Of a stretch of 64,000 bases of DNA, positions 42,115 to 62,985 are shown in pieces. The translations under genes and the position numbers were made by a program. Source of the DNA: Lineolata rhizophorae (lineage: Eukaryota > Ascomycota > Dothideomycetes > Lineolatales > Lineolataceae); assembly GCA_010093515.1 (NCBI GenBank), contig MU001710.1, forward strand, positions 62,001-126,000, in the 5' to 3' direction. Positions within the stretch are counted from its first letter, which is position 1, and each line of letters begins with the position of its first letter. The notes under the pieces are model-generated. The model did no database searches. It was not told the DNA's origin and saw nothing but the letters and a program-made list of their open reading frames with translations.

Positions 42115-43681
42115 ATGGCCACCTATGCGCCGGAACTGCCTCAACAGGAGTCCGGCCCTTCCATTGACGACTTTGAGGAGAAGAGCAATGACAAAGATGA
42201 AGAGGAAGGCCAGTACAATGCTGAACCTGACGAACAGGCCCCGGCGGAGCGCCCACGAGCGGACACTCCCCCGAATGGCGGTTATGGTTGGGTCTGTGTA
42301 GCCTGCGTGTTCATTGTCAACGGGCACACCTGGGGCTTGAACAGCGTACGTAATTGTTTCAATTCTCACTAACTCACTTAGTATCAAGATCCAGTGGAAG
42401 AATCAACTGGGCTGACCAACAGAACCGTACCTACAGTCTTACGGCGTCTTTCTTGCCCACTACCTAAGTACCAACACATTCCCAAACGCCTCGCCGCTAG
42501 ACTTCGCTTTTATCGGTGGCCTCAGCATTAGCATGGCACTGTTGATCTCACCACTTGGAACCATAATAACGCGGCTTTATGGCACTCGCGCGACGCTATC
42601 CCTGGGAATCGTCTTCCAAACCGCCTCTCTGCTAGGCGCATCGTTTGCGTCGCGCATCTGGCACCTCTACCTCTCGCAGGGCTTGTGCTTCGGCTGGGGC
42701 ATGGGCTTCCTCTTCGTCGCCACCGTCGGCGTCGTACCGCAATGGTTCACGACCCGGCGCTCGCTCGCCAACGGCATCGCGACGGCGGGCTCCGGGCTCG
42801 GCGGCCTCGTCTACAGCCTGGCGGCGAACCGGCTCATTGCGACGGCATCGCTCGGCTGGGCCTTCCGGGTGCTCTGCTTCGCGCAGCTGGGGGCCAACGC
42901 GGCGGCGACGGCGCTGCTGCGCGACCGCAACGCCGCCATCGGCTCGGCCCTGCTCCCCTTCGACGCGCGCCTCTTCCGGCAGCCGCCGTACGCGCTGCTG
43001 CTCTGCTGGGCCAGCCTCTGCATGCTCGGCTACGTCGTGCTGCTCTTCAGCCTGCCCAACTACGCCGAGGCGCGGCTGGGCCTGTCGCCCGCGCAAGGCA
43101 GCGTGCTCGGCGCGCTGCTGAACCTCGGCCAGGCCGTCGGCCGCCCGCCCATCGGCTACTTCTCCGACGCCGTCGGCAGGCTCAACATGGCCACCGTCAT
43201 GACGGCGCTCGCCGGGGCCCTCTGCCTGCTCGTATGGGTCTTCGCGCGCAGCTTCGGCGTCATGGTCGTCTTCTCGCTCGTCGGCGGCATGGTGGCGGGG
43301 ACCATGTGGGCGACGGCCGCGCCCGTGGCCACCGAGGTGGTCGGCCTGCGAGAGCTCCCCGCGGCGCTGAGCATCCTGTGGGTCGTGCTGGCGGTGCCGT
43401 CGACGTTCTCGGAGGCCATCGCCCTCGAGATGGTGGAGAGAGCCGGCGGCGAATACTTGGGCGCGCAGCTGTTTACGGGTTTCATGTATGTGAGCGGGGC
43501 GGGCTGCTTGTGGCTGCTGAGGGCGTGGAAGTTGGGAGAGGTGGATGCGGGGATGGACTTGATTGAAGGAGAGAGGAGCGGAGGTGCTGACGGGCGAGGT
43601 GAGAAGCGGACTGTACGGGATAGAAAGGAATTTGTGAGGATGTGGAAGTTCAAAAATCTTTGGGCATGGAGGAAGGTCTAA
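42115..43681 (+). CDS. MFS transporter, monocarboxylate (MCT/Mch) type
   Basis: Two exons, 42115..42345 and 42437..43681, give 491 residues. The family moves monocarboxylates or related small molecules across membranes. A soluble acidic N-terminus of about 55 residues precedes PPNGGYGWVCVACVFIVNGH, the hallmark first helix of fungal MCT proteins, followed by SYGVFLAHYL. About 11-12 hydrophobic helices follow, with LGGLVYSLAANRLI and VGRPPIGYFSDAVGRLN, the latter matching the MFS signature loop between helices 8 and 9 in orientation and spacing. The last about 50 residues are charged and cytosolic. The second exon is strongly GC-rich at third positions. Substrate cannot be told; no pathway gene lies next to it. 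Confidence 0.9.
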
Positions 43682-44476: not shown

Positions 44477-47400
44477 ATGTTGCACCGCGGCCGTAGCAAG
44501 GACCGCAACTCGTTGCCGAGTCCGACTTTCATGTCGGACGATCAAGTTGGTAAGTACCGAGTGCTGTTTGGTTGAACGGAATCGTCTCCAAATCATCTGA
44601 GAGACTTCTTCAAAGCTCAAAATATTGAATAAATCACTTACAACCGGCTCACTCACAGCTGACTATTTAACTGATCTGCGCACGAACCGCATCCCGCGTC
44701 CGACTTTCCACGGTGCCCGTCCACCGCCTCCCAAGCAAGCACTCCCGATCCGAAGCTCCACTCCGACCGCATTCCAAGCCCTCAGCAGTCCCACCAGCAA
44801 CGCCCGACCGCTTGACAATAGGAACTATGACTCCGGCACATCGCCTCTGCGCAGCTCGTCCGCCCAGGGACACCATCGGCGCAATAGCTCCATGGTCTCT
44901 AGCATTATTTCCCCACCACAGCCACGTTCAAACTCACGCGCCGGCCGTCCCCTCGTACAAGAACCACCGTATCCAGGCACTGTCGCGCGTGACTTCTCCT
45001 CGCCTGCCCCCCCGTCTTCACCTTACACACCAATGACGGCAACCAACGGCCTACCCTCCCCTTCCATAGACGCTGTGCTCGAGCGTGCCGAAGCGCCTGC
45101 GGCCGACGACTCCGGGCCTCGCCCGAGTGCGGTGCCCCAACGGCGCTCGTTCTCGCCGAGCCTCAAGTACCGCGAGAGCGGGCAGCGCTGGATGGAGCGC
45201 CAGGAGGCGCGCTCTCTGCGCCTCGCGCTCGAGGACATGGACCTACAAGACTCTACGCGGACCGAGGGTGCAACCGAGGCTGGAGAGGAGACGGCGGTCG
45301 AGGCCGAGATAGAAAGACGCGTCTACGATGCGGCGCGCGATGAAGCCGCCGAGCTCGTCTGGAGGCACCAGAACCCCGATGCTCCCAATGTATATCGCAA
45401 CCCGGATCTAGGCGAGGAGACTGCGTGTCCTGCTGCGATGGCCAGCAGCCCGAGCCGCTCTACGAGCCCGAGTGTCCAGCTCGAGGGGTCTTGCGAGCCG
45501 GGCCGCTTCGACTACCGGGCGCACCTGCGCAAGGGCTCGCACGCGCGGAGCCAGAGCCTCGGGCCCGACCCGGCGGGCACGGGCGCCATCCCGGAGACCA
45601 GCGTCGAGATGCCCGGCTCGGCGTCGCGCCGGGTCAGCCTGATCGGATCGCTTAAGTCGCGGCGGTCGGCAAGTCTGGCGAGCTCGAAGCGGTCGGTGAG
45701 CAGCGGTAGCAGCGACAGCGGCCATGGTGGGTCGCGCTGCGCGTCCGCGTGCAGCACCCGGGTCCCGAGCGACGGGAACGCTCGCATGAAGATGCCCGGG
45801 TCTGTGCCGGAGGGCGGTGAAGGGTGGGCGAAGGAAGACGGCGACGAAGGGCGGCACGCGGACGAAGGAAGAGATGGGAGAGGACGAGGCCGACAGAGCG
45901 GCGCACGCTCGGCCAGCAGCAGCAGCAGCAACAACAGCCGGCCAACGTCGCCGGCGGCCGCGCTCGTGGACCAGATCATGCACAACGCGCGGCAGCGGCG
46001 CCGTAGCTCGGGTGGGTCCGCTCGGTCCGTGAGCAACAAGCGAAAGGCCAGCGGAGCCAGCTTGTTCCGCAACCCGGACGATCAGATCTACGAGGAGCCC
46101 GAGCCAGACTCTCCTGCTCCCAAGAAGAAGGCGCAGGCTACGGGCACAGAGCCGAAGGCTGCTGCTGCCGCTAGCAACGACATGGCTGCTCCGGCGTCCA
46201 CCACTGCGGCGTCGAGCCCTAGCACCGGCACCGCGGCTTCGGGATCTGCTACTAGGGCCGAAGGTCACGATGCGAGCCCCGGTTCTCCCCCGGCCCCTGT
46301 TCCTGGTCCGCCGCAGCGGGTCGCCCCGACGCCGTCCATGGCTCCCAACGCGCCGCTCCAGGTCCGCCGCAACCCTTTCGCACGCGTCCAATTAGCCCGC
46401 GAGTCACGTGCAAGACAGCAGAAAGAAGCCACTACTGCTCAGCCCGTCGCTACACCCAATGGTTCTGCGAACCCGAATCCCGGTGCCGAGCCGCGTAAGG
46501 ATGGGACCGCCGAGGTGAAGGAAACGACCGTACTCCCGGCAGACCCAGCCCCCCCTGCAACCAATAAAGATGAGGTCAAGGACATCAGCAACGCTGGTGC
46601 TTCCAAGCCCAGCGGTACCGCCGCCGCCGTCAAACAAACAGCTAGTCCCGTTGCTTCTCCCATAGCGCGAACCAGCCCCTTCGCCCGCTTCCACCGCACC
46701 GAGATCCACCGTAACCCGCCCTCCCAATCTCGCAATCCCGCCTACACGTCCAACACGCCTCCGCCATCGTCGGGCTCCGCTGGATCCACCCAGTCTGCCG
46801 GGCCAGAAAAGGTAGAGGGCAAGTTTGAAAGCGACCAGGCCGAGGACGGGACACCGAAGATGAAAAACGGTGTTGAGCTTCGCAGTGACGACATCCGCGC
46901 CGCAACGAGCATGCGTCGTCGGGACCGCAGCCCCAATCTGCCTCAGCCGACCATGGTTTCGGACAGCCCGGGCCGGCCCATCGTGAGCTTCCAGAAGGAT
47001 TGGAAGCCCAAGGAGGTTGAGCTCAGTATGGCCGGTGAAAGCGCAAGCGACGGTTCAGCTGGCGGGAAGGGTACCTCGCCGAGGCAGAATCCCGAGATAA
47101 CCGCAGCTAAAAGGGCAGATTTCGGCGCCGCAAATGCCAATGGCAAGCCTGGAAGTCGCCCTGGAAGCTCTGGAAGCGCTGGCAGCCTCCGCGGACGACC
47201 CCGTGGCCCCGCCCAGCCCGTGCCCGAGATCAACGCTTCCACATCATCGACTCCGGCTCCGCCCAAGCCGTCCATCAGCGTCGACTCGGCTCCCTCGGTC
47301 CCATCCATCAACGTGTCGTCGGCGCCGCCCAAGCCCAAGGCTCCCGGTCCGCCTACCATCAACGTCACGCCCTCGCCTCCTCCCCCGGTGCCGATCATAT

Positions 47401-48463
47401 CGGTCAATTCGGCCCCTTCAATCCCCACCATCAACGCCCCCGATGACGCTAAACCTAAAGCCACCCCTCCCATCCCCTCCATAGCCGTCTCGGACGACAC
47501 CTCTAACGCCTCCAAACCGACGCGACCCCTGCCAAACCCCAAATCCGCTTCCTCGCCCAACGTGCGCTCCTCCCGCCCGGGGCCATGGCGTCCCGCTGGC
47601 GCAGGCGCAGCGGCCGCCCCCGCGCGCAGCAACACCGCAGCCTCCGCTTCGACGACGTCGTCGATGCGCGGCGGCTCGACGGCGCTGTGCGCGGCCTGCG
47701 CGCAGCCCATCGCCGGCCGCATCCTCGCCGCCGCCGGGGCCCGCTTCCACCCGGAGTGCTTCCGGTGCCACCACTGCAGCGAGGCGCTCGAGTGCGTCGC
47801 CTTCTACCCGGAGCCCGAGGGCGCGCGGGCGGCGCGGGCGGCGCGCATCCGGGCGCGGGCCCGCGGCGAGGACGTCCCCGCGGACGCGCCCGGCGAGGCC
47901 GAGGACGGCGCCGACGAGACCGAAGTCAGGTTCTTTTGCCACTTGGACTTCCATGAGTTGTTTAGCCCGCGGTGCAAGAGCTGTAAGACGCCGATTGAGG
48001 GCGAGGTCGTGGTGGCGTGTGGGGCGGAGTGGCACGTGGGTCACTTTTTTTGCGCGCAGTGCGGTGATGTGCGTTTGCCCCCCACGAGAGATGTGGCTGG
48101 TGCCGGTATGCTGACTTTTGCTTTAGCCGTTTGATGCGCGCACGCCGTTTGTGGAGAAGGAAGGTTTCGCCTGGTGCGTGGGCTGCCATACGAACCGCTA
48201 CTCGGCCAAGTGCAAGAAGTGCCGTAAGCCGGTCACGGATACGGTCATCAAGGCCCTCGGGTCCGAGTGGCACGCCCAATGTTTCTGCTGCGTGGTACGT
48301 AATTTGAATTCCGACCCCGGAGATTCAAAATGAAGCGAATGCTGACTTCTCTTCCTCCACTCAGACATGCGGCGGTCAGTTTGAAGATGGCCGCTACTTC
48401 CTTCGCGCGGAAACAATGGATCCTGTTTGTGTCCGCTGCGAAGAGGAGCGGTTGAAGGCTTAA
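44477..48463 (+). CDS. Paxillin-like LIM protein with three C-terminal LIM domains
   Basis: Four exons, 44477..44549, 44659..48068, 48127..48294, 48365..48463, give 1249 residues. Fungal paxillin-like proteins (Pxl1 type) act at the cell cortex and septum with Rho GTPases and actin; that role is by analogy. The first about 1030 residues are disordered: Ser/Pro/Ala-rich, with many RRNPFARV and TSPFARFHRTEIHRNP-like repeats and a Pro-rich PSINV/PTINV repeat series at about 860-960. LIM1 starts at Cys1035 (CAACAQPIAG, then HPECFRCHHC) and its second zinc finger carries about 33 extra residues, Ala/Arg- then acid-rich, before CHLD. LIM2 begins CKSCKTPIEGEVVVACGAEW; its second half lies across the intron (CGDPFDARTPF...CVGC). 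LIM3 is CKKCRKPVTDTV to CVRCEEERL. Zinc ligands of all three look complete. The first exon (MLHRGRSKDRNSLPSPTFMS) is set by phase and a good donor. Confidence 0.9.
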
Positions 48464-49932: not shown

Positions 49933-51249
49933 CTAGAGCTTCGGCATCATCTCTTCGCTCTTCCTTTTGTTTCTTTCGTCGCTCGTGCATGGCATCTCGT
50001 TTATCTGTTGTGCATATGCCTGTTAGCACTCACTTCGCGCAAACCTAGGCCTTTCATTACGAGACACTTGCCAGCATAAGCTTCCAGAAAACTGAGTGCG
50101 GGTAGGATCAATAGCACTAGCGGAACAAGCTGTCCGAAGGAAGCCACAGTCGTCTCATCGTCATCGTCTTCGCCAAACCACCCCGAGACACTCATCCACG
50201 TCTGTAGGTTCGAAAAGTTGCCAATCGACATGATCGACACTACCGTGGCGGCCATTGCCACAGCAACGCGGAGCCAGAAGAGAGCAAAGCGTAGTTGGAA
50301 CATGCGACGTTGAAACTTGTCCCTGCCGAGTATGGCCTGTGCCATAGACAGCACCGTTGCTGCAGCGAAAAAAACCACGAGCACAATATATGACTGCAGG
50401 CCCTTCCGGATACCCTTTGCACCTCCCTTGACGGCACTGACAGTGTCATCGTAGAGCGCGGTCAGGTTCTCCGCCATGAAGCAGACCGCCGGGCGAACGA
50501 GCAAAGTATCGTTCTTGTCTTCGATGACAGGCGGACTCAAGGGGAACTCGGGCGTGTTCCGCTGGACGAAGACGAGACCGACGAAGACAAAGCTGAGAAG
50601 GATGAGCGCGAGGCGCAGCGCGCCGAGCCACCAGTTCTGTAAGTATTGCTCGACCGCTGTGATAGAGCAGAGATGTACGACAATCGAAACGAGGACAAGG
50701 TCGCAGACGAGGTTGTAGTGGTAGGCCGAAATGCTGCAGGAGGCCCAGTAGTACGTCACGTACAGCAGGGCTTGGCCGGTAACAATGGACTGATCGCTGA
50801 AGCTGATGAGGAGGCTCTCAAGTACGTTGCGCCATGTGCCCGGATGTTTCGTGTCGCTAGAGACGACGGTGAGCTTGCATACGACACAACTGCGATAGAG
50901 TTCCAGACGACATACTGTTCCTCATTCTTATACCTTATTTGTGCTTCTCTTACACCTCCCTTGTGGTATTGGGCGCCTTCGAGAAATAGGAGCACCATCG
51001 CGGTGGCTATCGTTATGGCGGCATAGACAACGAAGGTATACTAAACCTATTCCAAAAAGAAATTTGCATTATGTTCAATCATTTCCAGGCGTAACTCGAG
51101 GGGGAAAACTAGGATAGGCTCACCCCCGGACCAGCAATGTCCCCATTAGAAGTGAAAGTGCCGAAGGCGGGACCTTCACAATCAACAGTCCCATAGCCCC
51201 GCGCCTCGCATTGAGCCGGCGATGTAGGAACGCTCGAATTGGTGCCCAT
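49933..51249 (-). CDS. Fungal multipass membrane protein of unknown function
   Basis: Four exons, complement(49933..50004, 50034..50856, 50934..51040, 51124..51249), give 375 residues in phase. The lumenal-looking N-terminus (about 42 residues, ending NGDIAGPG) precedes a first helix, YTFVVYAAITIATAMVLLF. A conserved-type block follows: RNVLESLLISFSDQSIVTGQ and CSISAYHYNLVCDLV with SIVVHLCSI. In total I see about six or seven hydrophobic helices and a charged, Lys-rich tail. The DIAGPG...SDQ..VTG...YH pattern is common to a large family of filamentous-fungal proteins with no assigned role, to my knowledge. The donor of exon 2 (AAG|GTATAAG) was chosen by phase; an alternative GTGTAAG 20 bases upstream does not fit. 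It is divergent from the CPR gene, with about 800 bases between. Confidence 0.72.
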
Positions 51250-52051: not shown

Positions 52052-54260
52052 ATGTCATCTTCGAGCTTCCCTAGCAATATGGTCGAGATGCATCTTACGC
52101 ACATTGGCGTTCCGTTGTTCGACCGCATAGCTCCCTCCTCGTACGCAGACGCGGTTGCCATCGGAGCTGCAGTGCTTGCCTCTGCCGCGTACCTGTTACG
52201 GGAATATACCTGGAATAAGCCCGATCCATTCTATCACCTTTGGTTTGAGAGACCACAAGAAAATTCCTCTGCCGCCAATGCGCGAAGGAATGAGACCAGG
52301 AACATTGCACAAAGATTGGATGAGCTGGTATGATCGCGCGAAAGCCTTGTCCATTTAATTCACTTACTTATTCATTGTCTAGGGCAAGGATGTGGTCATT
52401 TTTTGGGGATCCCAGTCTGGCACCGCTGAGGGCTTCGCGTATCGCCTTGCTCGCGAGCTGCACCAACGCTTTCATCTAGAAGCCATGGCCGCAGATCTCT
52501 CAGACTTCGACCCGGAAACGATCGCCTTGATCCCGGATGCGAAAATTGCTATCTTCATTCTCTCAACCTACGGGGAAGGGGATCCGAGCGACAATGCAAC
52601 CGGATTCTGGGAGTGGCTGACAAAATTGCATGACCGCTCGCTGGATTCCCTCCGCTATGCGGCGTTTGGCCTGGGAAACAGTGAATACAGACACTACAAC
52701 CGGGTAGTGGATGTGGTGGACGAGGCCCTAGAATTATGTGGCGCGAAACGCCTAAAACCTCCCGGGAAAGCCAACGACGCCAAAGGGTCTACCCAGGAGG
52801 ATTTTCTGTCATGGAAGGATGAACTCTTTGCCTTCTTCCGCAGTGATCTTGGCTTCCAGGAACACGAGGTCAAATACGAACCGACCCTTTCTGTTGTTGA
52901 AGACGACAGTTTACAGCCAGCTGATCTGCACATCGGCGAGCCCGTCCATTCAGCAGACAAGTCAGCTAAAGCTACGCCTACTTCCTCGATCGGAGCTTTG
53001 AAGATTAAAAATTCTCGCGAATTGTTCACTGCTTCCAGTCGGAACTGCGTCCACCTGGAGTTGGATCTGGCAGGGCACCCTCAGATAACCTATAAAACAG
53101 GCGACCATCTTGCCATCTGGCCAATGAATCCTGACGACGACGTGGAGCGCCTCATCCGCACTTTAGGGCTTGACCGCCATCGTGGTGTTCCCATTTGTAT
53201 CAAAGGCCTTGATCAAGGGACCAAAGTTAGGGTTCCCACTCCGACAACTGTCGAGGTGCTTTTCCGCTATTATGTGGAAATTTGTGGACCTGTTTCCCGA
53301 GATACTGTTCGCGGACTGGTCCAATTCGCGCCAACCCCTTCAGCCAGGACATTCCTTTTGGATTTGAGTCGGGACAAAAACACCTTCACAGAATTTCTCA
53401 GACGGACACATGTCAACCTCGGACGACTGCTCGAATTGGCAACTGGTGCGGATGTAAACACTGTTTGGTCGATTCCCTTATCCTACATCATCGAGACACT
53501 TCCACACACACAGCCGCGCTACTATTCCATCTCATCCTCTAGTATCCTTTCTCCCCGCGCTCCCACCATCACAGCTCTTGTTTCCAACACCGCTTTACCC
53601 GACGAATCAACCGCCTCAATCCCAGGCCTCACCACGAATTATCTCCTTGCTCTCTCGCACTCACTGGCCGACTCTGATTCACCGGCGCATCCCCAAGGGC
53701 TTTCCTACAACCTTCCAGGTCCGTCGGACGCCTTGGCCGGCGGTAAAGTATTCGCGCACATCCGCCGCTCCAAATTCAAACTGCCGATGCAGTCCTCCTG
53801 TCCCATAATTATGGTCGCCGCGGGCACGGGTCTTGCGCCCTTCAGAGCGTTCATCGAGGAGCGGGTGCGGCTGCAGTCCATCGGGAGGCCCCTGGGCGAA
53901 ATGATCCTGTTCTTCGGCTGTCGCCGCCCGGACGAGGACTACATCTACCGGGAGGAGCTGGAACAGATGGAAAAGGGACTGCAGGGTAAGCTGCGCATTG
54001 TGACAGCATTCTCGCGGGTGCATGGCGAGAACAAGGTTTATGTACAGGATAGAGTTTTCGAGCACGGGCGGGATATATGCCGAATGGTTGGCGAGGGAGC
54101 GAATTTGTACATTTGTGGGAGAGCGAGCATGGCGAGAGAGGTCAGAAAGAGGGTTGAAGAGGTGATGGGTACGGATAATGGCTGGGATGAGGAAGAGGTG
54201 AAGGAGTGGACGGAAAGTATGAAGCGGAAGAACAAGTGGCAGGAGGACGTGTGGGGCTGA
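52052..54260 (+). CDS. NADPH-cytochrome P450 reductase (CPR)
   Basis: Two exons, 52052..52327 and 52383..54260, give 717 residues. CPR passes electrons from NADPH through FAD and FMN to microsomal P450s. A membrane anchor lies at about 31-48 (ADAVAIGAAVLASAAYLL). The FMN domain shows SQSGTAEGFA, STYGEGDPSDN and GLGNSEYRHYN. The FAD domain has RYYSISSS. The NADPH part has GTGLAPFRAFIEER, FFGCRRPDEDYIY and the C-terminal EDVWG with the aromatic residue that stacks on FAD. All cofactor motifs look whole, so the enzyme should be active. The ATG at 52052 is the first in frame. Filamentous fungi often hold more than one CPR; lying 3 kb from a P450 suggests that this copy is dedicated. Its 3' end is only 59 bases from the end of the convergent regulator gene. 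Confidence 0.95.
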
Positions 54261-54319
54261 TACCCTGCTAATTTTCACTATTGAGTTCTGTTTGAACACC
54301 AATTGCAGCGCTTCAGCCA

Positions 54320-56788
54320 TCAGACCCAGCCCCAGGCCTCTTTCAGGTGCTGTTGGCTGCAATGCCCTTAGTAACTTCCTCAAGATTGAAATTTGACAAA
54401 ATGACTGGTTTGGCACTTACGCTAGCGATGTACACCATGCATATTCTTTTTCAGTTCTCACCAAAATATTGTAAAGTGCGTCTTGCTCCTTCCGGCTAGT
54501 AAAGCGGTCTCCAGCCAACCCAATCGCCATGCATGCAGTCCTGAAAATCAAAATCAGTGACGAATCTCTCATGCGATAATTTAACTCAAGGGGCCTCCGA
54601 AACGTACGCATAGGCTGGGTTGATGCGGTTGATTGACTTCGCAATTCCGCAAAGAACGCGGACGTCGCTTTTGATTTCATCCTAAGCATTTTCAGCATTA
54701 GACATAAACAGACTGGATGACGATACTGACATCCATCAACCGTATTGCAGTCCTTTGAGCCGGACCCAATCGCGGGATCTTGGGATTGTGGGCGATCAGT
54801 AGGATTCGGGCAAGATGGTAATATTGAAGTCCAACAACAATAGAGTCGCTGAGAAGCAGAACTTCAGGGAACATGTTTTCCCCTTCAGGCTGTTCGACAA
54901 ATATTGGAATAAATGAAGGAGGCTTGGAAGCCATCCATGCCGCCGAGTATTCGACGAGCTGCTTGTACGTGGCGATATTGCCATCGTCTCCAAAGCAGTA
55001 CTGAATGACGTTCGCCAAATGCAATACCATCCTGTTTGCCCAGACATGGTCGGCTGCTGGGCTGAACGATCGATCGAACGTTAACCTGTCTAGGTTTAAG
55101 CCGATGGGTCTTTGATGAATTACAGCCATATAGACCTCTTGTCGTAAGCCGACCCAAAAAGCCGCCTGGTGGAATTCGTTCGGGGACATAGACGGAAGCT
55201 GTGCCTCGATAAGGGCACGGATTCCAAGCAAGTGGTCTTGCCTATCTGGCTCAAAAATAGGAACTAAGCAGCAAAGGAACATTAGCGAAATCAAGAACGA
55301 AGGTCGTTCCGAATGAGCAAAACCCTTTGTTAGTTACCGAGGGCGGGTCAAAAATTTGCCAGGAATTCCGAACCGGCTGAAAGGAGGCCTTACCTTCCAC
55401 TTCTTCAAAAAAGCGGAGGATTATAATGGCAGCCAGAAGATTTTCATCCATTACAGCGATATCATTACTCAATCTTGGCGCAATACATTTCAAACATTCT
55501 TGGTGATGTGCAACTGCCACGAGTGAGTCGTAATTTTTAACACGACTCAAATGCTTCGCCGATGCTGCAAACACAGCATTGAGCAGTGCAGGGCATATTG
55601 CAGCTCTTTCTGGAACAACCGATGCGAAATGCTTGTCCGGGTCGCAAATATCGAACAGCGGTGCAAGATGATTCACAAAATAAATGACCAGTTCCGCTTC
55701 CCGGTGGTCTCGGAGCGGTAAACTGCGAAGCTCAACATAATGCGGGGTTTGAACCACCGGAAAGGGGGAGAGTCCGGAGACACTCCCGCTAGTAGCTGAC
55801 CCAAAGTGTTCCAAGGAATGTGTTCCGGCGCTATCCGGAATACTAGGCCTTGAACGTGACTGATTTGGAGAAGAGAACGATGACGCTGACAAGACATGGT
55901 GGGCCTCTGGAGACCCGTACAGCGGCGCTTGAGCGTGTTCTGGAGGAGACACTTGTAAAGTTTCTGTGATGTCAAAACTGGAGCTGGACTGATTTTGTCC
56001 AGTGGTTTCAAGGCTCTGGTAATTTTCGACGGCTTGGTTTGAATCCTCCTCTGTATGCCGGTCACCGTTCGGTCGGGATTCTGTTGTCGCACCCGACTCC
56101 GCCGGCGAGCGACCCACAGCTGTTGGACCACGTTGTACTTCCACTTCTTCTTCCGACTCAGAACTCCTATCGTATACGATTGCAGTTTCCCGAGTCTCAT
56201 CGACGAAACTAATTCTTTTCCGGGCAGTTTTGCACCAAGGCTGGTCCTTTGCAAACTCGTACTCTGATTTGCTTCCCCTGTAAAAAGTCAGCATCACAAA
56301 CGGCACATCAATATGTGAGCATCCTGGTAGCCGAAGACGCCCTTCAACACGCATACGGCCATGGAAAATGAAAGTCACTTAACGGCCCCAAGGCTCTGGA
56401 TAGCCTTTCCAAGGGCTGGTCAAGATGGGTCTGGAAATTTGGAAAATGCATACCTTGTACTAGACGTGTAACGAAACCGAAGGTTGTAACCACGAATGCA
56501 TTCTATGCCCTTCTTGGCACATTGTGAACAAGAAGGCTGCTTATCATCACCTGTGCAGATACTGTTGATGAGACTAGCCCCGGATATTATTACCTGTCTT
56601 GGCACTTACACTTGAGGTGCCTAGAAAATTGTGGATCCGTCAGTAAAGACCACGTGCCTTTCTCTGGAGAGCGTTGTCCGCGGAAGATTTACCTCATACG
56701 ACAGCCCTTCGAAACGCCATGCCATCAGTGCCCTGTGCATATGCTGTGGAAGAGTAAATTTGCATACCTGGCAGCCCGGTCTCCTCAT
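54320..56788 (-). CDS. Zinc-cluster-type fungal transcription factor (regulator 1), odd DNA-binding domain
   Basis: Eight exons, complement(54320..54356, 54421..54540, 54608..54681, 54731..55263, 55394..56277, 56454..56550, 56610..56620, 56700..56788), give 614 residues. One exon is 11 bases. The C-terminal part is a Fungal_trans_2-type domain: ELVIYFVNHLAPLFDICDPD, HFASVVPERAAICPALLNAV, DENLLAAIIILRFFEEVEVP, QAAFWVGLRQEVYMAV, TACMAIGLAGDRFTSRKEQ and EYAWCTSLAQQHLKEAW. In the Zn2Cys6 cluster, the second half is normal (HLKCDDKQPSCSQCAKKGIEC), but after MRRPGCQVCK the best splice leaves about 24 residues, not 6, before the next Cys. Either the first exon is mis-modelled or the cluster is abnormal. 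All joins from exon 3 on are firm. It lies between CPR and P450, transcribed away from the P450. Confidence 0.83.
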
Positions 56789-57172
56789 CTTCGCTGCTAT
56801 GAACGCATCTAGGGAAAATCCTGTGGGTAGTAGGGATAGAGGGAAATCTCCTAACAGCTGTCGCAGGGCACTGCGGCTCGCTGATTTATACCTTGTTGAT
56901 CTCTGTGGGAAAGTGCGCTAACGGATGCGGGGATGCGGGGTTGCGGATCCACGCGCAGGCGATTCGAGCTGCTGCCGCTAACCGATCCGTATCGGCTTCC
57001 TGACTTGATAGTAGCCTTTCATTCTAGACACTTCCTCACTAGGTTGCCATGATGTCCGGACTGATATTTAGCCCTCCTGTCATTTTCGAAAACGACTTTT
57101 CTGTAGAACACGAGTTTCTGCTCCATCAAGTCTTCCTCTCTACTTCATTTTCTACTCGGTATTACTACAATT
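56789..57172. promoter_or_regulatory. Shared promoter region of regulator 1 and the P450
   Basis: 384 bases between divergent start codons. It contains a perfect inverted repeat, CCGAT-N4-ATCGG, at 56982-56995, of the CGG-triplet kind bound by dimeric zinc-cluster regulators, plus GC-rich repeats of GGATGCGG just upstream (56931-56946). Confidence 0.5.
56982..56995. promoter_or_regulatory. Inverted repeat CCGATCCGTATCGG, possible regulator site
   Basis: Perfect 5-base arms around a 4-base spacer, 178 bases upstream of the P450 start codon. Zn2Cys6 dimers commonly bind inverted CGG or CCG triplets; here the triplets face outward. No binding data. Confidence 0.35.
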
Positions 57173-58817
57173 ATGTTTGACAAGATGACTCTCTTCACTT
57201 CTGCGCCCTACTTTGCGGCCCTTACGATAGTTATTGTTTTCTATTTCGTGGTGTATCCCGTCATTGTCTACTTTAGAGATGCGAAAGGTGATTGCTTTGA
57301 AGCATACTCTGACGTTCGAAAGTTAATCATGCACTCCAGGTCTACGGAAATTTCCAAACATGAGCCCATTCTCCGGCATGTCGAACCTACCATTTATGAT
57401 ACTAGCCCATGGCGGGGCCAGATCATCATATCTTGTGAAACTCCACAAGGAGCATCCCATTCTTCGGACCGGGCCGAACACCCTCTCCTTTGGGGACGTT
57501 CGCGCGATAAAAGAAATCTACGGCCACGGGACTCCTTGTCTAAAGGATGAAGCATACTCACTGCCCGCTGCTTCGCACTACCACCTTGCTGATGTCGTCG
57601 ACAAACCTGACCACGCGAGAAAACGGAAGATCCTGTCCTCAGCCTACGCGTTGAAAAACCTCGAAGGATGGGAGCACAAAGTGGCAGATAAAGTCGAGAG
57701 GCTAATCACCCAATTCGATGCACGGTGCACTGCTCCTCTGCCCAAAGGGAAATTGTACCCCGACAAGGACGAACTCACTGTCGATTACCGCGCATGGACC
57801 AATTTCTTCACGCTCGACGCCATCGCCGATATCGGCCTTTCAGAACGCCTCGGCCTTCTCGACAAAGGCCATGATCGTGTCATCGGCCAATGGATGGATG
57901 GCTCGACGTCAGAGCTGAATCTGCGGGAGTGCCTCTACCCCACGGCTCGGAAACAGTCACTCATTCTCTGGAGCTACGACTACTTCAAGTTCCTGAACAA
58001 GGCGGTCAATTTGATCCCGTTCTACCGCCGCATGTCTGAGTCGAGCCAAGGCTGGGACGCCATCGTCCTCCGCCGCTCGGCCGAGCGCTTGCGGCGTTAC
58101 CAGTCCGGCGAGAAGCTTGACGACTTCTTCCAAGCCCTTATGGAGGACAAGAACGGCGCGCCGAATAACCTGGAATGGGGCGAAATCGTCGCCGAAATCA
58201 ACATCATGATGAACGCGGGCAGTGCCACCACGGCCATAGCCGTCACGAATGTTCTTTATCAGTTGCTCAAGAACCCGAGAACCTTGCACCGGCTTCGCGA
58301 GGAGATCGATGCTGTTCTTGACTCTGATGAGGTAATCGCACCTTACGACAAGGTGAAGCACTTGCCTTATCTTCGTGCTTGCCTTGACGAATCGCTGCGC
58401 CTGTTCCCACCGACGCCTCATGGTCTGCCTCGCAAGACTCCGGCTGAAGGACTTTGGATCGCGGACCAATACATTCCCGGCGATACGACAGTCAGTATGT
58501 CTGCGCTTGTCGCACACCGCGACGAATCTGTATTTCCCGAAGCAGACAAGTTCATTCCCGAGCGGTGGCTCGGCGAGAAAGGCAAGACGCTACAGTCTGC
58601 GTTTATTGCCTTCTCCGCTGGTGCGAGAGGTTGTATCGGCCGCAACATTTCATACCTGGAGCAGACAGTGCTTCTGTCCTCTGTGCTGCACAGGTATGAG
58701 TTTGCGCTGCCGCAAGGGTTTGAATTGAAGAGATTGGAGACGATGAATTGGATTTTGGGAGAAATGCCGGTCAAGCTGTGGAGGCGACAATTAGAAACTG
58801 AGACAGAAGGTACCTAA
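57173..58817 (+). CDS. Cytochrome P450, benzoate 4-monooxygenase-like
   Basis: Two exons, 57173..57287 and 57340..58817, give 530 residues. Microsomal P450: membrane anchor at about 8-30, then the Pro-rich hinge KGLRKFPNMSPF created exactly by the splice. Other motifs: RTGPNTLSFGDVRAIKEIYGHG, DHARKRKILSSAYALKNLEGW, ExxR in DESLRLFPP, PERW, and the heme loop FSAGARGCIGRN with Cys470. The I-helix reads NAGSATT at about 330-336, where most P450s have Asp or Glu before the Thr pair; here it is Ala. The sequence resembles fungal proteins annotated as benzoate 4-monooxygenase (CYP53-like), but exact CYP family and substrate cannot be fixed by eye. It stands between two regulator genes and near a CPR gene, which suggests a role in aromatic breakdown or a small biosynthetic pathway. 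Confidence 0.95.
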
Positions 58818-59330
58818 TTGTTTTGTTGATTTTTTTTTTCATTTTCCAGCGTTTCTGTCCAATAGCATGATATAATAAATTGGAAATTACACAAAATTGC
58901 TTCAAAATGTTTGGCGTTTCGAACGGGCTGCAAGTTGGATCGAGACTAGTGAATTGTGGGGATGGCTGTGGGGTATGTACTAGCGTGCAGAGATCTTTTC
59001 CCCTTCTGTATTTTCGGGCAATTTTCTCCGCCGTGACTAGGATCACCACCTTCATGTGCACGACGACACTCCTTAGATCCTTCGCTTTTAGAGACGCCAT
59101 TTTGTACGATTTTGATTGAGTTACCCGCTCGATTGGCGGTAGATTACATAGACAATCACTAATAGCTCCACGTGCCGCTTCTGGAGCCAAAACTACGTAG
59201 CTCGCCAACAAGCTCCTACGGATTATCCAGCTTTCCCTATCTCCTAGCGCTATGCAGCGGATGTGAGCTCATATCGTATATTTATCAATTTACTACGTGA
59301 ACTCTAAGATTTTGCAGCTCTTTTCTAGAA
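58818..59330. promoter_or_regulatory. P450 3' flank and promoter of regulator 2
   Basis: About 510 bases. The left part has an AT-rich P450 3' UTR. CCGC-N7-GCGG at 59126-59140 is a weak inverted repeat. No coding sequence accepted. Confidence 0.4.
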
Positions 59331-60972
59331 ATGGCGGAGCAAGACCCAGCAGAGAGAGTCTGGCCCGTCGCCCCGCCATCCCCGTACTCTCTCGCTCCTG
59401 TATCTACGAATTCTTCTACTAGAACAGATGATGAAGGACACGAGTAAGCCGAGAAATGAATCTCGATCATAGGTGCCAGCTAAGACCATCTTAGAAACTC
59501 GACTAAGTCTGTTCGGGACATTTCATTGGCCCTTCCTTCGTCATTGGATCAGCAAGGAGTAGGATGGCCGCTCGGAAATCGCAAAGAAGCTAGATGCTTC
59601 ATGCACTTCATCGATTATCTTGCCCAATGGGTATGTGCCTATCATTTTTCTTTGACCGGCCGAATCTAGAGTAACAACTAATCTAGGTCGACGTCTGCGA
59701 CCCACGCCGCCATTTCGGTACCGAGGTGCCGCGGCGAGCCTGCGAGCATCCCCTTCTAACCTACGCCTTACTTGCCTTTTCTTCGCACCACCTTAGCATC
59801 TTATCGGGTTACGAAGATGACAGCCCGGCTCGATACTATAGCAGTGCCTTGCAGATCTTAATCCCCATTCTCGATGGTCCTATCAATGCTCTGAACGAGG
59901 ACATCCTAGCGGCTATTGTGCTATTGCGTCTCTACGAGGAAATGTTACCTGGTATGCCGGCAAGAAGAAACCATTTTTGAATTTGTTTGGTTGACGCGTC
60001 TTTAGATGTCGACACCGGCACCCATTTGTTTGGGAGCTCGCGAATACTAAACTCCATGTCTAGTTTTGCGGCCAAGGGTGGTCTCGGGGAAGCCGCGAGC
60101 TGGATCGTTCTCCGACAGGACATCTATTTCTCTCTTACAAAATCGCAGCCTCTATACATACAGCTGGAAAGCTACAAGATGTCAAGCTCTTTCACGGATA
60201 ACAGTGCCGAGTCGCTTGCAAATAGGGCCGTTTTCCTATGTGCACAACTATTGGCTTACGCTTTCCATTGCGGAGCGGACCTAGACGTACAGCTATGGAA
60301 CGAATTGAATGAGGAGGTGGAAAAGTGGTATGAAACCAAACCCTGGCAGTGCACTCCACTGTGGGTGGGTCCCCAAGGGAGCAGTGGGTCTGCGTTTCCT
60401 TCCATTTGGATGATACGGCCTGCTCATAGTAAGTGTGCTTAAAGCTCAACGAGAAAGTAAAAGGGCCACTGACTCAAACACCCTAGTTGTTGGCTACCAA
60501 CATAATTGCCTTGCTAGGGTGTTACTCGCCATTTTTAACCCGCATTTATGCAAGCCAGGTTTTGAAACATTTAGCAGGAGAAGAGAAGCAGACGTAGGCA
60601 TTCACTGAGTCTAACCATTCTATGCTTAGGCTAATTAGATATTAGGATGCTGCCCTCGGAAACCTTCGCATGCTGATTGGCCTCGCCATTAGCAATCCTT
60701 CTGTTGTAAATGCGACCCTTTTGGCCTCTCACGCTCTTCAAGCTTGTGAGTATTTCCTGAGCGTGACTCTCTCAAACCTGTCATCTCTGACGCTGAACAC
60801 TTTAGGCGGCTCCTATTTGAAAGATCCCGAGGAACGTAAAGAAGCGATAGAGTTTCTGGAGGATGTGAGAAAGCGAACTGGTTGGCACACAAGTCGGATT
60901 GTCAACAATTTAACAGCGCAGTGGTCACAAAGTACCAATGCAAATGCTTTCGGGCATATCCTCATGCAATGA
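59331..60972 (+). CDS. Fungal_trans_2-type regulator lacking a zinc cluster (regulator 2)
   Basis: Seven exons, 59331..59443, 59495..59630, 59687..59951, 60006..60428, 60487..60593, 60646..60745, 60806..60972, join in phase to 436 residues. The regulator domain is whole: EARCFMHFIDYLAQWVDVCD, PRRHFGTEVPRRACEHPLLT, ALNEDILAAIVLLRLYEEM, THLFGSSRILN, GLGEAASWIVLRQDIYFSL, HNCLARVLLAIFNP, ATLLASHALQACGSYLKDPE and a C-terminal RKRTGWHTSRIVNNLTAQW. It starts with about 40 Pro/Ser-rich residues (MAEQDPAERVWPVAPPSPYS) and has no cysteine cluster; I see none upstream either. So it may act through a partner rather than by binding DNA itself. It shares its architecture with regulator 1 and may be an old duplicate. 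Transcribed in the same direction as the P450. Confidence 0.85.
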
Positions 60973-61646
60973 CTCTTTCTGAGCTCCCAGTTTCATTCTC
61001 TGCCTATCTCTAAAAGTTATGGTGCGGGCTATGCGACTGATTTGAATGTATTGGTAGAATCGGGACGGCATTGCCGAGAAATAATGGTCCAAAACAACAG
61101 AGGAACTGGCCAATCTTCGCGTAGTCGCGTACAGTTTTGGTCCGATAGCAAATTCTGGTCTAGCTTCGATAGTGTTGATAGTTAAGCGGGGAGGATTGCC
61201 CCAATGTGCTCTCCTAAGAAGGAAAGTTTCGGCGAATCGCTTAGGTCGCTTTTTTTTCCGAGAGCAATATTCGCCGATCGATGGCCACTACCACCGCGGT
61301 ACTATTCCCCCGCCCGGCGAAACTGGATATTCGGATTGCTTCAGCTGTTCCATAGCTCGATTCTAGGCACTTAAGCCTCCGATGGTCGGGCTCTTTGCAT
61401 ATGCAAAAGCGCAATGGCAGCCTTCCAACCGCTCTTGGTTCCCACTACAAGTGGGGGTTCTTGGGGATTCGAGAGGTGTTTAAAGCCACCTTCCTTCCCC
61501 TTTGATTGCTGCTTGCGTCCCAAAATCGTTCCTCTGATCACTAGTATTGGTGAATTGGCACACATTGTCGACCAGCAGCTCTTGAGAATCATACTTTGAC
61601 ACCTGCCATTCCGCACTTTCGAGCGAACCTCCAATTGCAAGCCAAA
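60973..61646. promoter_or_regulatory. Promoter region of the Gfo/Idh/MocA oxidoreductase
   Basis: About 670 bases. Contains the inverted pair TCGGCGAAT (61229-61237) and ATTCGCCGA (61269-61277), and a third ATATTCGG at 61327-61334. These may be regulator sites. No coding region accepted. Confidence 0.4.
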
Positions 61647-62985
61647 ATGGGAGTCCAGAAGTTGAAGATCGCAGCTGCAGGTCTGGGGCGAATGGGCAAA
61701 CGTCATGCCATCAACTTCCTCCACAGAACACCACGTGCCGAACTCGTTGCCGCTTTTACTCCGGACGAAGCAGAGACTCAATGGGCCAAGACGAACCTAG
61801 AACCTTATGGCGTTCGGCTGTACGATGACTACGATGCGATGATCTCCCAAGAGGGTCTCCAGGCGGTGGTGATTGCAACGGTGACCAAAGTGCACGCAGA
61901 AGAGGCACTTAAAGCAATGGAAAAGGGACTGCACGTGCTTTGCGAGAAGCCAATATCAACGGATGTCAGCATCGTAAGTGGAGTCAATCTCTCGATCTAC
62001 CAATTTAACTCCAGATCGCAGTCTAATCAAGTACGTAGTGCCGCAAGGTTGTGGACGCCGCAAAGGCGAAGCCCCACCTTAAGGTGATGTGCGGCTTCTC
62101 CCGGAGGTTCGACTCTTCGTACAGGGACGCGTATGAGAAGATGGACGCGGGCGTCATCGGCACGCCGACAATATTCCGCTCGCAGACTTGCGACAAGCAC
62201 GATCCGAGCCCATTTTTCCTGGAATATTCTGCCCAGAATGGCGGCTGCTTTGTCGACATGACTGGTAAGTCCCGAAATATGCTTCTGAGTCGAAGCAATT
62301 GTGTCTTTAGTGGTTTTCGCTGGCATTGAACCGAGTTTTTCACGCTCGTATGTTTTGAATGTTATCGCTGACCCTGTTTCGCAGTTCACGACATCGACCT
62401 TGCGTTGTGGTTTTTCGGTGACAACTTAATTGTCAAATCTGTCGCTGCGGCGGGAGTGGCAGCCGTCCAGACCGGGCTCCGCGACCTCGGTGACTGCGAC
62501 AATGCTGTTGGGATCGTGGAGTTTTGGGGTGGCAAGATCGCCTACTTCTACAATTCCCGCATGATGGCGCACGGACAGGAAGACACGACCGAAATCATCG
62601 GGACTGGAGGCAAATTGGTCGTCAACGGGAACCCTCAGGCTAACCTTGTCAACACCTATACGTCAGCGGGTATCATCCGCGAGACGCCGCCGCACTATTA
62701 TGGGCGGTTCGAGTATGCTTTTGTTACGGTGAGCACTTCTAACATTCTACCATCAAGACCTAGACGGAAATTTTTTGGAGCCAAGTGGACGCTAATGATT
62801 GTGACGCTCTATAGGAATCTAATGAGTTCACTGCCGCGGTGCTAGATAATACCAAGGTGCCGCTCAAGCTGAGCAATGCAATTAGAGTCGTTGAGATCGG
62901 CTCATACTTGCAAGAAGCTTTGTCCACTGGCAAGAAGTTGTACTTTAACGAAGCTGGTCAGCGAGTCGAGCAGCCTCGTCTTTGA
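61647..62985 (+). CDS. Gfo/Idh/MocA-family NAD(P)-dependent oxidoreductase
   Basis: Four exons, 61647..61973, 62039..62264, 62385..62728, 62815..62985, give 355 residues, the usual size. Members oxidise or reduce sugars, inositols and some amino-acid derivatives with NAD(P). The N-terminal Rossmann fold shows KIAAAGLGRMGKRHAINFL (GxGxxG) and VLCEKPIS, the EKP motif whose Lys is catalytic. The C-terminal domain has VMCGFSRRFDSSYRDAYEKM and a DIDLALWFFG segment with the Asp and His-type residues of the active site just after VDMTVHD. It is nearest to fungal proteins labelled inositol 2-dehydrogenase-like, but substrate cannot be told. Exon 2 acceptor (GTACGTAG) is chosen because it restores RKVVDAAKAKP. 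It ends the P450 neighbourhood; membership in that cluster is inference. Confidence 0.92.

Follow-up and report, generated by a model that had tools for sequence, protein, structure and literature searches.

The question raised by this locus of Lineolata rhizophorae is whether a cytochrome P450 and an NADPH-cytochrome P450 reductase (CPR) encoded close together form a dedicated pair and, if so, which chemistry they serve. The two genes belong to a block of five, together with two regulator genes (REG1 and REG2) and a gene for a Gfo/Idh/MocA oxidoreductase (GFO), at positions 52052-62985 of the window, the 64,000-nucleotide stretch analysed here (contig MU001710.1, positions 62,001 to 126,000; C41:62001-126000 in our contig numbering), which is part of a 31 Mb genome of 48 contigs. 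This grouping had been proposed in an initial annotation, and all five genes were recovered with Pfam support and with exact outer coordinates, the ATG of the CPR gene at 52052 and the stop codon of the GFO gene at 62985. We regard the block as quite probably the L. rhizophorae version of a CYP630-CPR2 cluster that is conserved in Pezizomycotina, with the P450 most likely a fatty-acid hydroxylase. From this genome the reading draws on the gene models with their domains and order, on a second CPR encoded at another locus and on loops that lean towards CPR2, while the CYP630-CPR2 pairing, its induction and its activity on oleate are carried over by analogy from papers on relatives; what we infer from these together is the P450 family and the P450 substrate, how the genes are regulated and what GFO does.

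The CPR gene (52052..54260, forward strand; exons 52052-52327 and 52383-54260) encodes a protein of 717 residues that is complete by its Pfam matches (FAD_binding_1, Flavodoxin_1 and NAD_binding_1) and carries a hydrophobic stretch in its N-terminal region, which we read as a putative membrane anchor. It retains the RYYSISSS motif, the Cys-Gly and the EDVW end, to which we presume a role in CPRs. A second CPR (CPR1) is encoded on C7, and the window protein is 41% identical to it. Against solved structures that we take to be Candida and yeast CPR the C7 protein scores far higher than the window CPR (680 versus 451 bits for PDB 6t1t, 558-564 versus 411-414 bits for PDB 2bpo/2bf4), as it does against what is presumably human CPR (PDB 3qe2, 441 versus 323 bits). 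These scores support the view that the window CPR is neither the sole nor the housekeeping CPR of the genome and that CPR1 has the housekeeping role; the initial annotation had named the opposite case among the outcomes that would count against its proposal.

Flavodoxin_1 matches were found at five loci in the genome, namely the window CPR, CPR1, a sulphite-reductase-type open reading frame (ORF), a wyosine-type ORF and a diflavin ORF on C14. As further CPRs we rejected C7:257 kb, which carries wyosine and radical-SAM domains, and C7:694 kb, with sulphite-reductase domains, as well as a C33 match with FAD, NAD and POR domains and a C8 match with cytochrome b5, FAD and NAD domains, each in a frame lacking a Flavodoxin_1 match. 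The C14 ORF, which has FAD and NAD domains and flavodoxin pieces and aligns with the window CPR in short pieces only, was likewise rejected and is read as Tah18-like. One more match to the CPR, on C25, is weak. Two side observations belong to these loci: a REG1-like regulator gene adjoins the Tah18-like diflavin reductase gene at C14:433.7-438.2 kb, probably by coincidence, and at C8:460 kb one long frame fuses cytochrome b5, FAD-binding and NAD-binding domains.

The loops of the flavin mononucleotide (FMN) domain of the window CPR include SQSGT and GDPSDNA (TxGxGDxSDNA), with a lysine in loop 4. Counted by eye against the published motifs of a single reference, GsCPR2 of Grosmannia clavigera (PMC4368105), the window CPR agrees at 5 of 5 positions in loop 1, 8 of 11 in loop 2 and 5 of 9 in loop 3, as against 4 of 5, 6 of 11 and 4 of 9 for CPR1; the loop 4 lysine is displaced by one position relative to GsCPR2. 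The loops are spaced 52/36/35 in the window CPR, 52/38/35 in GsCPR2 and 52/46/35 in CPR1. Taken together, the counts lean towards the window loops fitting GsCPR2 modestly better than those of CPR1 do. Separately, residues ~668-678 (at ~54.1 kb) read CGRAS-MAREV where CPR1 has CGDAANMAREV, an Asp to Arg change with one residue fewer; this stretch is the counterpart of the Asp632 loop of rat CPR, which has been linked to NADPH binding and domain opening (PMC12472590).

A pairing of this kind has been described in other fungi. Of 204 Pezizomycotina genomes surveyed, about 30% have CYP630 and CPR2 genes as neighbours, and adjacent transcription factor and transporter genes are also induced (PMC4368105); CPR2 lies within the CYP630 cluster in most of 19 aspergilli (PMC5307856). 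In G. clavigera, CYP630B18 catalyses the omega-hydroxylation of oleic acid with either CPR, converting one of nine fatty acids; for the two reductases, kcat values of 989 s-1 (CPR2) and 37 s-1 (CPR1) are reported (PMC4368105). In Ophiostoma piceae, cluster 8 (OPP_02424-02428) comprises an inositol transporter, an ARCA-like protein, a P450, a CPR and an NAD-binding Rossmann protein, all five of which are up in sawdust (log2 3.81-7.42), while OPP_02429, the locus that follows by number, encodes a transcription factor that is up on triglyceride and oleic acid (PMC3680317). The P450 of that cluster, labelled benzoate 4-monooxygenase, is named as the CYP630B18 homologue, and P450 homologues lie near inositol transporter, ARCA-like and CPR genes in Fusarium graminearum, Aspergillus niger, A. 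fumigatus and others (PMC3680317).

The L. rhizophorae block shares with the G. clavigera cluster a diverged second CPR near a P450 and a regulator, the presence of both CPR1 and CPR2 in the genome and, as far as the loop counts go, FMN-domain loops that seem similar (PMC4368105). It differs in that REG1 separates the co-oriented CPR2 and P450 genes, in the presence of a second regulator without a zinc cluster, in that no adjacent transporter was found and in that the P450 family is assigned indirectly. With O. piceae cluster 8 it shares the grouping of a Rossmann oxidoreductase, a CPR, a P450 and an ARCA-like regulator, OPP_02429 supplying a further transcription factor there, whereas O. piceae carries the myo-inositol transporter and has a gene order, judged by locus number, unlike that of the window (PMC3680317). 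The initial annotation had proposed that the CPR and the P450 form a dedicated pair, to be judged by synteny and co-expression; both are on record for other fungi, where such a pair belongs to a conserved, co-induced cluster with a regulator and an oxidoreductase.

The P450 gene (57173..58817, forward strand; exons 57173-57287 and 57340-58817) encodes 530 residues with a Pfam match of 216.2 bits and the motifs NAGSATT, ESLR, PERW and FSAGARGCIG. In the I-helix, residues 330-336 are NAGSATT, with an alanine in place of the acidic residue that usually precedes the threonine. Over matched stretches the protein is 25-41% identical to other P450 matches of the genome among the 20 listed besides the gene's own two. 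From its neighbourhood and its size we consider the protein a probable CYP630, its 530 residues fitting the 61 kDa of GsCYP630B18; the published cut-off for assignment to CYP630 is E 1e-50 (PMC4368105).

The regulators are related but not alike. REG1 (54320..56788, reverse strand; nine exons, 596 residues) and REG2 (59331..60972, forward strand; seven exons, 436 residues) both contain PF11951 and are 29% identical over 363 residues (E 9e-51), while the Zn2Cys6 domain (Zn_clus) was found in REG1 alone, at 34.4 bits against a cut-off of 21, the Pfam scan giving no zinc cluster match in REG2. Of the initial description as two regulators of one type, the kinship stands and the common zinc-cluster architecture does not. 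A 14-nt micro-exon (56693-56706, reverse strand) inside the Zn2Cys6 domain rebuilds the zinc cluster of REG1; when splice models with one or two introns were enumerated across the 700 bases upstream, no other solution kept CX2CX6C. REG1 and the P450 gene are divergent and have a 384 bp promoter in common (56789..57172), in which an 8-bp unit forms a threefold near-repeat with four CGG triplets at 56922-56946.

On the CYP630-CPR2 reading, an inducer would act through REG1 to raise expression of the P450 and CPR2 across this promoter, and REG2, with no DNA-binding domain of its own, would act via a partner. CPR2, anchored in the endoplasmic reticulum, would preferentially supply the P450 of the block, with electrons passing from NADPH through FAD and FMN to the P450, which would hydroxylate a long-chain (C18) fatty acid terminally, like the characterized CYP630 on oleic acid. 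GFO would act as an NAD(P)-dependent dehydrogenase of a polyol or inositol, oxidizing a sugar-like or cyclitol co-product.

Several points weigh against this reading. The CPR and P450 genes, which lie 2.9 kb apart on one contig, are not immediate neighbours since REG1 intervenes, and the CYP630 assignment of the P450 is itself indirect, resting as it does on neighbourhood and size. Residues D137, R256, D462 and R465 of GsCYP630B18 are absent at those numbers from the window P450, a comparison in unaligned numbering that says little. The four promoters of the window have no common words above shuffles, and co-regulation through a common promoter word was accordingly set aside for these regions; when five roughly bounded promoter regions of a cluster on C4, described below, were added to the four, the best 10-mer count was reached in 10 of 100 shuffles. 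In the subset of surrounding ORFs that was scanned, neither a Sugar_tr match nor an inositol transporter turned up, and the nearest ORF of the MFS type is an MFS_1 match at 42416-43678, beyond a LIM-domain gene. GFO and the regulators appear to point to inositol, which omega-oxidation would leave unexplained. Finally, in Table 3 of PMC4368105 triglyceride induces the CYP630/CPR2 pair more strongly than oleate does, 326x versus 14x for CYP630 and 418x versus 29x for CPR2. Among the table's ten other genes, oleate has the stronger effect on six (lipase, ACSL, one FATP, CMQ_6959, CT and FOX2) and triglyceride on three (GK and two ACLs), with one FATP about equal; the O. piceae P450 is likewise reported as higher on triglyceride than on oleate (PMC3680317). 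Re-reading the table in this way, we suggest that the natural inducer of the pair may be other than free oleate.

The pointer to inositol comes first from GFO itself (61647..62985, forward strand; four exons, 355 residues), which has Pfam matches to GFO_IDH_MocA and C-terminal domains and the motifs EKPI, GFSRRFD and HDID, of which EKPI and HDID are presumably catalytic. Its closest solved relatives are inositol dehydrogenases (182 bits to PDB 4n54). Likeness to bacterial IolG extends over nearly the full length at 256.7 bits to TIGR04380 (iolG), the best of nine NCBIfam models listed, none of which exceeded its own cut-off; the window protein differs from IolG in falling below the 355-bit cut-off of that model, in being eukaryotic and in having a substrate that is putative. 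The best paralogue of GFO in the genome, 62-64% identical in two pieces, lies at C4:221-238 kb in a second cluster, beside genes for a zinc alcohol dehydrogenase, a short-chain dehydrogenase/reductase (SDR), a myo-inositol oxygenase (MIOX), an aldo-keto reductase and a relative of REG1 that is a regulator of the PF11951 type. The MIOX match (400 bits) is the only one genome-wide. The C4 stretch has the look of a cluster for polyol or inositol catabolism.

REG1 too has its nearest relative there. Among the matches listed the C4 regulator is the best, with 33% and 40% identity in its two main pieces, where the REG2 piece reaches 31%. When the pieces are joined, identity is 46.6% over 339 aligned residues for C4, 36.7% over 215 for C14 and 28.3% over 364 for REG2, the C4 and C14 values being biased upward because their pieces were chosen by similarity to REG1. 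Since REG1 is closer to the C4 regulator than to REG2, a local tandem duplication giving rise to REG1 and REG2 is not favoured; a recent duplication of GFO is argued against by two introns of the window gene that are absent from the C4 copy. The new observation is that the best in-genome relatives of both GFO and REG1 are found in a second cluster around the sole MIOX gene.

The alternative that fares best is built on this observation, although we consider it unlikely. It has the P450-CPR2 pair oxidizing an inositol derivative, for example by O-demethylation, and GFO oxidizing the freed inositol, which would then pass to the MIOX cluster on C4. Besides the GFO and REG1 kinships and the gene content of the C4 cluster (MIOX with zinc alcohol dehydrogenase, SDR and aldo-keto reductase), it can call on the inositol transporters of O. 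piceae and of the F. graminearum, A. niger and A. fumigatus loci (PMC3680317), on the steep triglyceride response of CYP630/CPR2 in a table where lipase, FOX2, ACSL and CT are higher on oleate (PMC4368105) and on the reported demethylation of 6-O-methyl-galactose by a bacterial P450. Against it stand the substrates of P450s, mostly hydrophobic, and the sole tested CYP630, which hydroxylates oleic acid and for which no cyclitol is seen among the substrates in the parts of PMC4368105 drawn on here; the ORFs scanned around the window copy yielded no inositol transporter, and GFO could be a passenger. The word 'inositol' is absent from the main text of PMC4368105, a literature search for a link between pinitol and P450s gave unrelated work only, and no cyclitol claim for a P450/CPR cluster was found in the literature on inositol or pinitol, as covered by listings and by parts of PMC3680317, PMC4368105, PMC5307856 and PMC10173653, supplements excluded. 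Slightly less likely again is the bold form of this proposal, in which the conserved CYP630-CPR2 cluster as a whole would form the first part of a route for cyclitols in fungi and not an oleate detoxifier: the P450 and its private reductase would oxidatively open or demethylate an inositol derivative (such as pinitol or another methyl-inositol), GFO would oxidize the ring and the product would enter the MIOX cluster, with kinship between their ARCA-like regulators linking the two clusters.

A role in the detoxification of xenobiotics or plant-defence compounds, by a broad-range P450 with an inducible reductase, appears improbable. Deletion of CYP630A1 in F. graminearum reduces virulence (PMC5869400), and monoterpenes do induce CYP630 and CPR2, but at 3-4x (PMC4368105, Table 3) this induction is small, and GsCYP630B18 is a narrow enzyme that accepted only oleate of the nine fatty acids.

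The initial annotation had put forward, as one possibility, aromatic acid catabolism through a hydroxylase of the benzoate type and a reductase dedicated to it, which we now hold to be very improbable. CYP53 enzymes, the benzoate 4-hydroxylases, follow the pattern F-S-x-G-P(98%)-R-A(73%)-C-V(86%)-G and have an EXXR motif with T or A after the E, E-T/A-L/M-R (PMC3990721, Table 4). The window P450, with FSAGARGCIG and ESLR, fits neither motif, and a CYP53-like P450 with FSVGPRACVG and ETLR sits at C5:1377101, the one genomic match to the motif, with none in the reversed control. A CYP53 role for the window P450 was rejected on these two grounds. None of the five block genes encodes a ring-cleavage enzyme, published CYP630 work leads to oleic acid, and a Trichoderma survey places CYP630 in a clan of its own, separate from CYP53 (PMC5985579). 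What the window P450 has in common with the CYP53 systems is that it is a fungal P450 and that its O. piceae homologue is annotated as a benzoate 4-monooxygenase, which accounts for the earlier impression of a benzoate-hydroxylase-like enzyme. An accidental meeting of neighbours, with CPR2 serving many P450s, is scarcely credible since a matching set of parts occurs with co-induction in other fungi (PMC4368105, PMC3680317), even if REG1 separates CPR from P450 and the promoters lack common words.

Chance estimates, which are a rough guide only because the families were picked after being seen, put the probability that a given CPR has a P450 no more than 9 kb away at 0.03 or 0.06, taking 55 P450 genes (a rough guess) or 105 (exon-level matches, 92 of 98 candidates scored); one of the two close GFO copies would fall in the block at 0.001 and two of the five REG-family loci at 3e-6. 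All five gene models are open with a single terminal stop each, their splice sites having been picked by eye and by frame from genomic sequence alone. CPR and REG1 are convergent, tail to tail, with 59 bp between their ends. To the left of the block lies the LIM-domain gene (frame 44601-48131, end read at ~48.46 kb) and to the right an ABC-type gene in two frames. A membrane-protein-like ORF upstream of CPR (50001-50921, reverse strand) matched nothing in Pfam with the threshold relaxed to E 1.

A low-GC stretch at ~48-64 kb, between the LIM-domain gene and the ABC-type gene, encloses the block; its GC content is 0.49-0.53 as against 0.55-0.67 immediately outside, and further low-GC stretches occur on the contig. 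GC at third codon positions (GC3) is 0.49-0.65 in the five genes versus 0.81 in the main exon of CPR1, and elsewhere 0.60-0.86 over 11 other P450 loci and 0.49-0.51 in two REG paralogues. Horizontal transfer was not adopted as an explanation, the GC3 gap proving nothing where REG paralogues are equally low and the contig has other low-GC stretches; dinucleotide indices, judged by the usual thresholds, show no repeat-induced point mutation.

The P450-reductase pairing found here corresponds to an already described fungal cluster, to which L. rhizophorae adds a further member with its own gene order. At the same time it brings out something that published descriptions of the cluster leave unaddressed, as the dehydrogenase, the regulators and the transporter of relatives look to be of an inositol type and the induction table fits triglyceride over oleate. 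The inositol-type parts and the triglyceride-leaning induction thus make the role of this cluster as an oleic acid detoxifier one that can be tested against a role in polyol or cyclitol metabolism.

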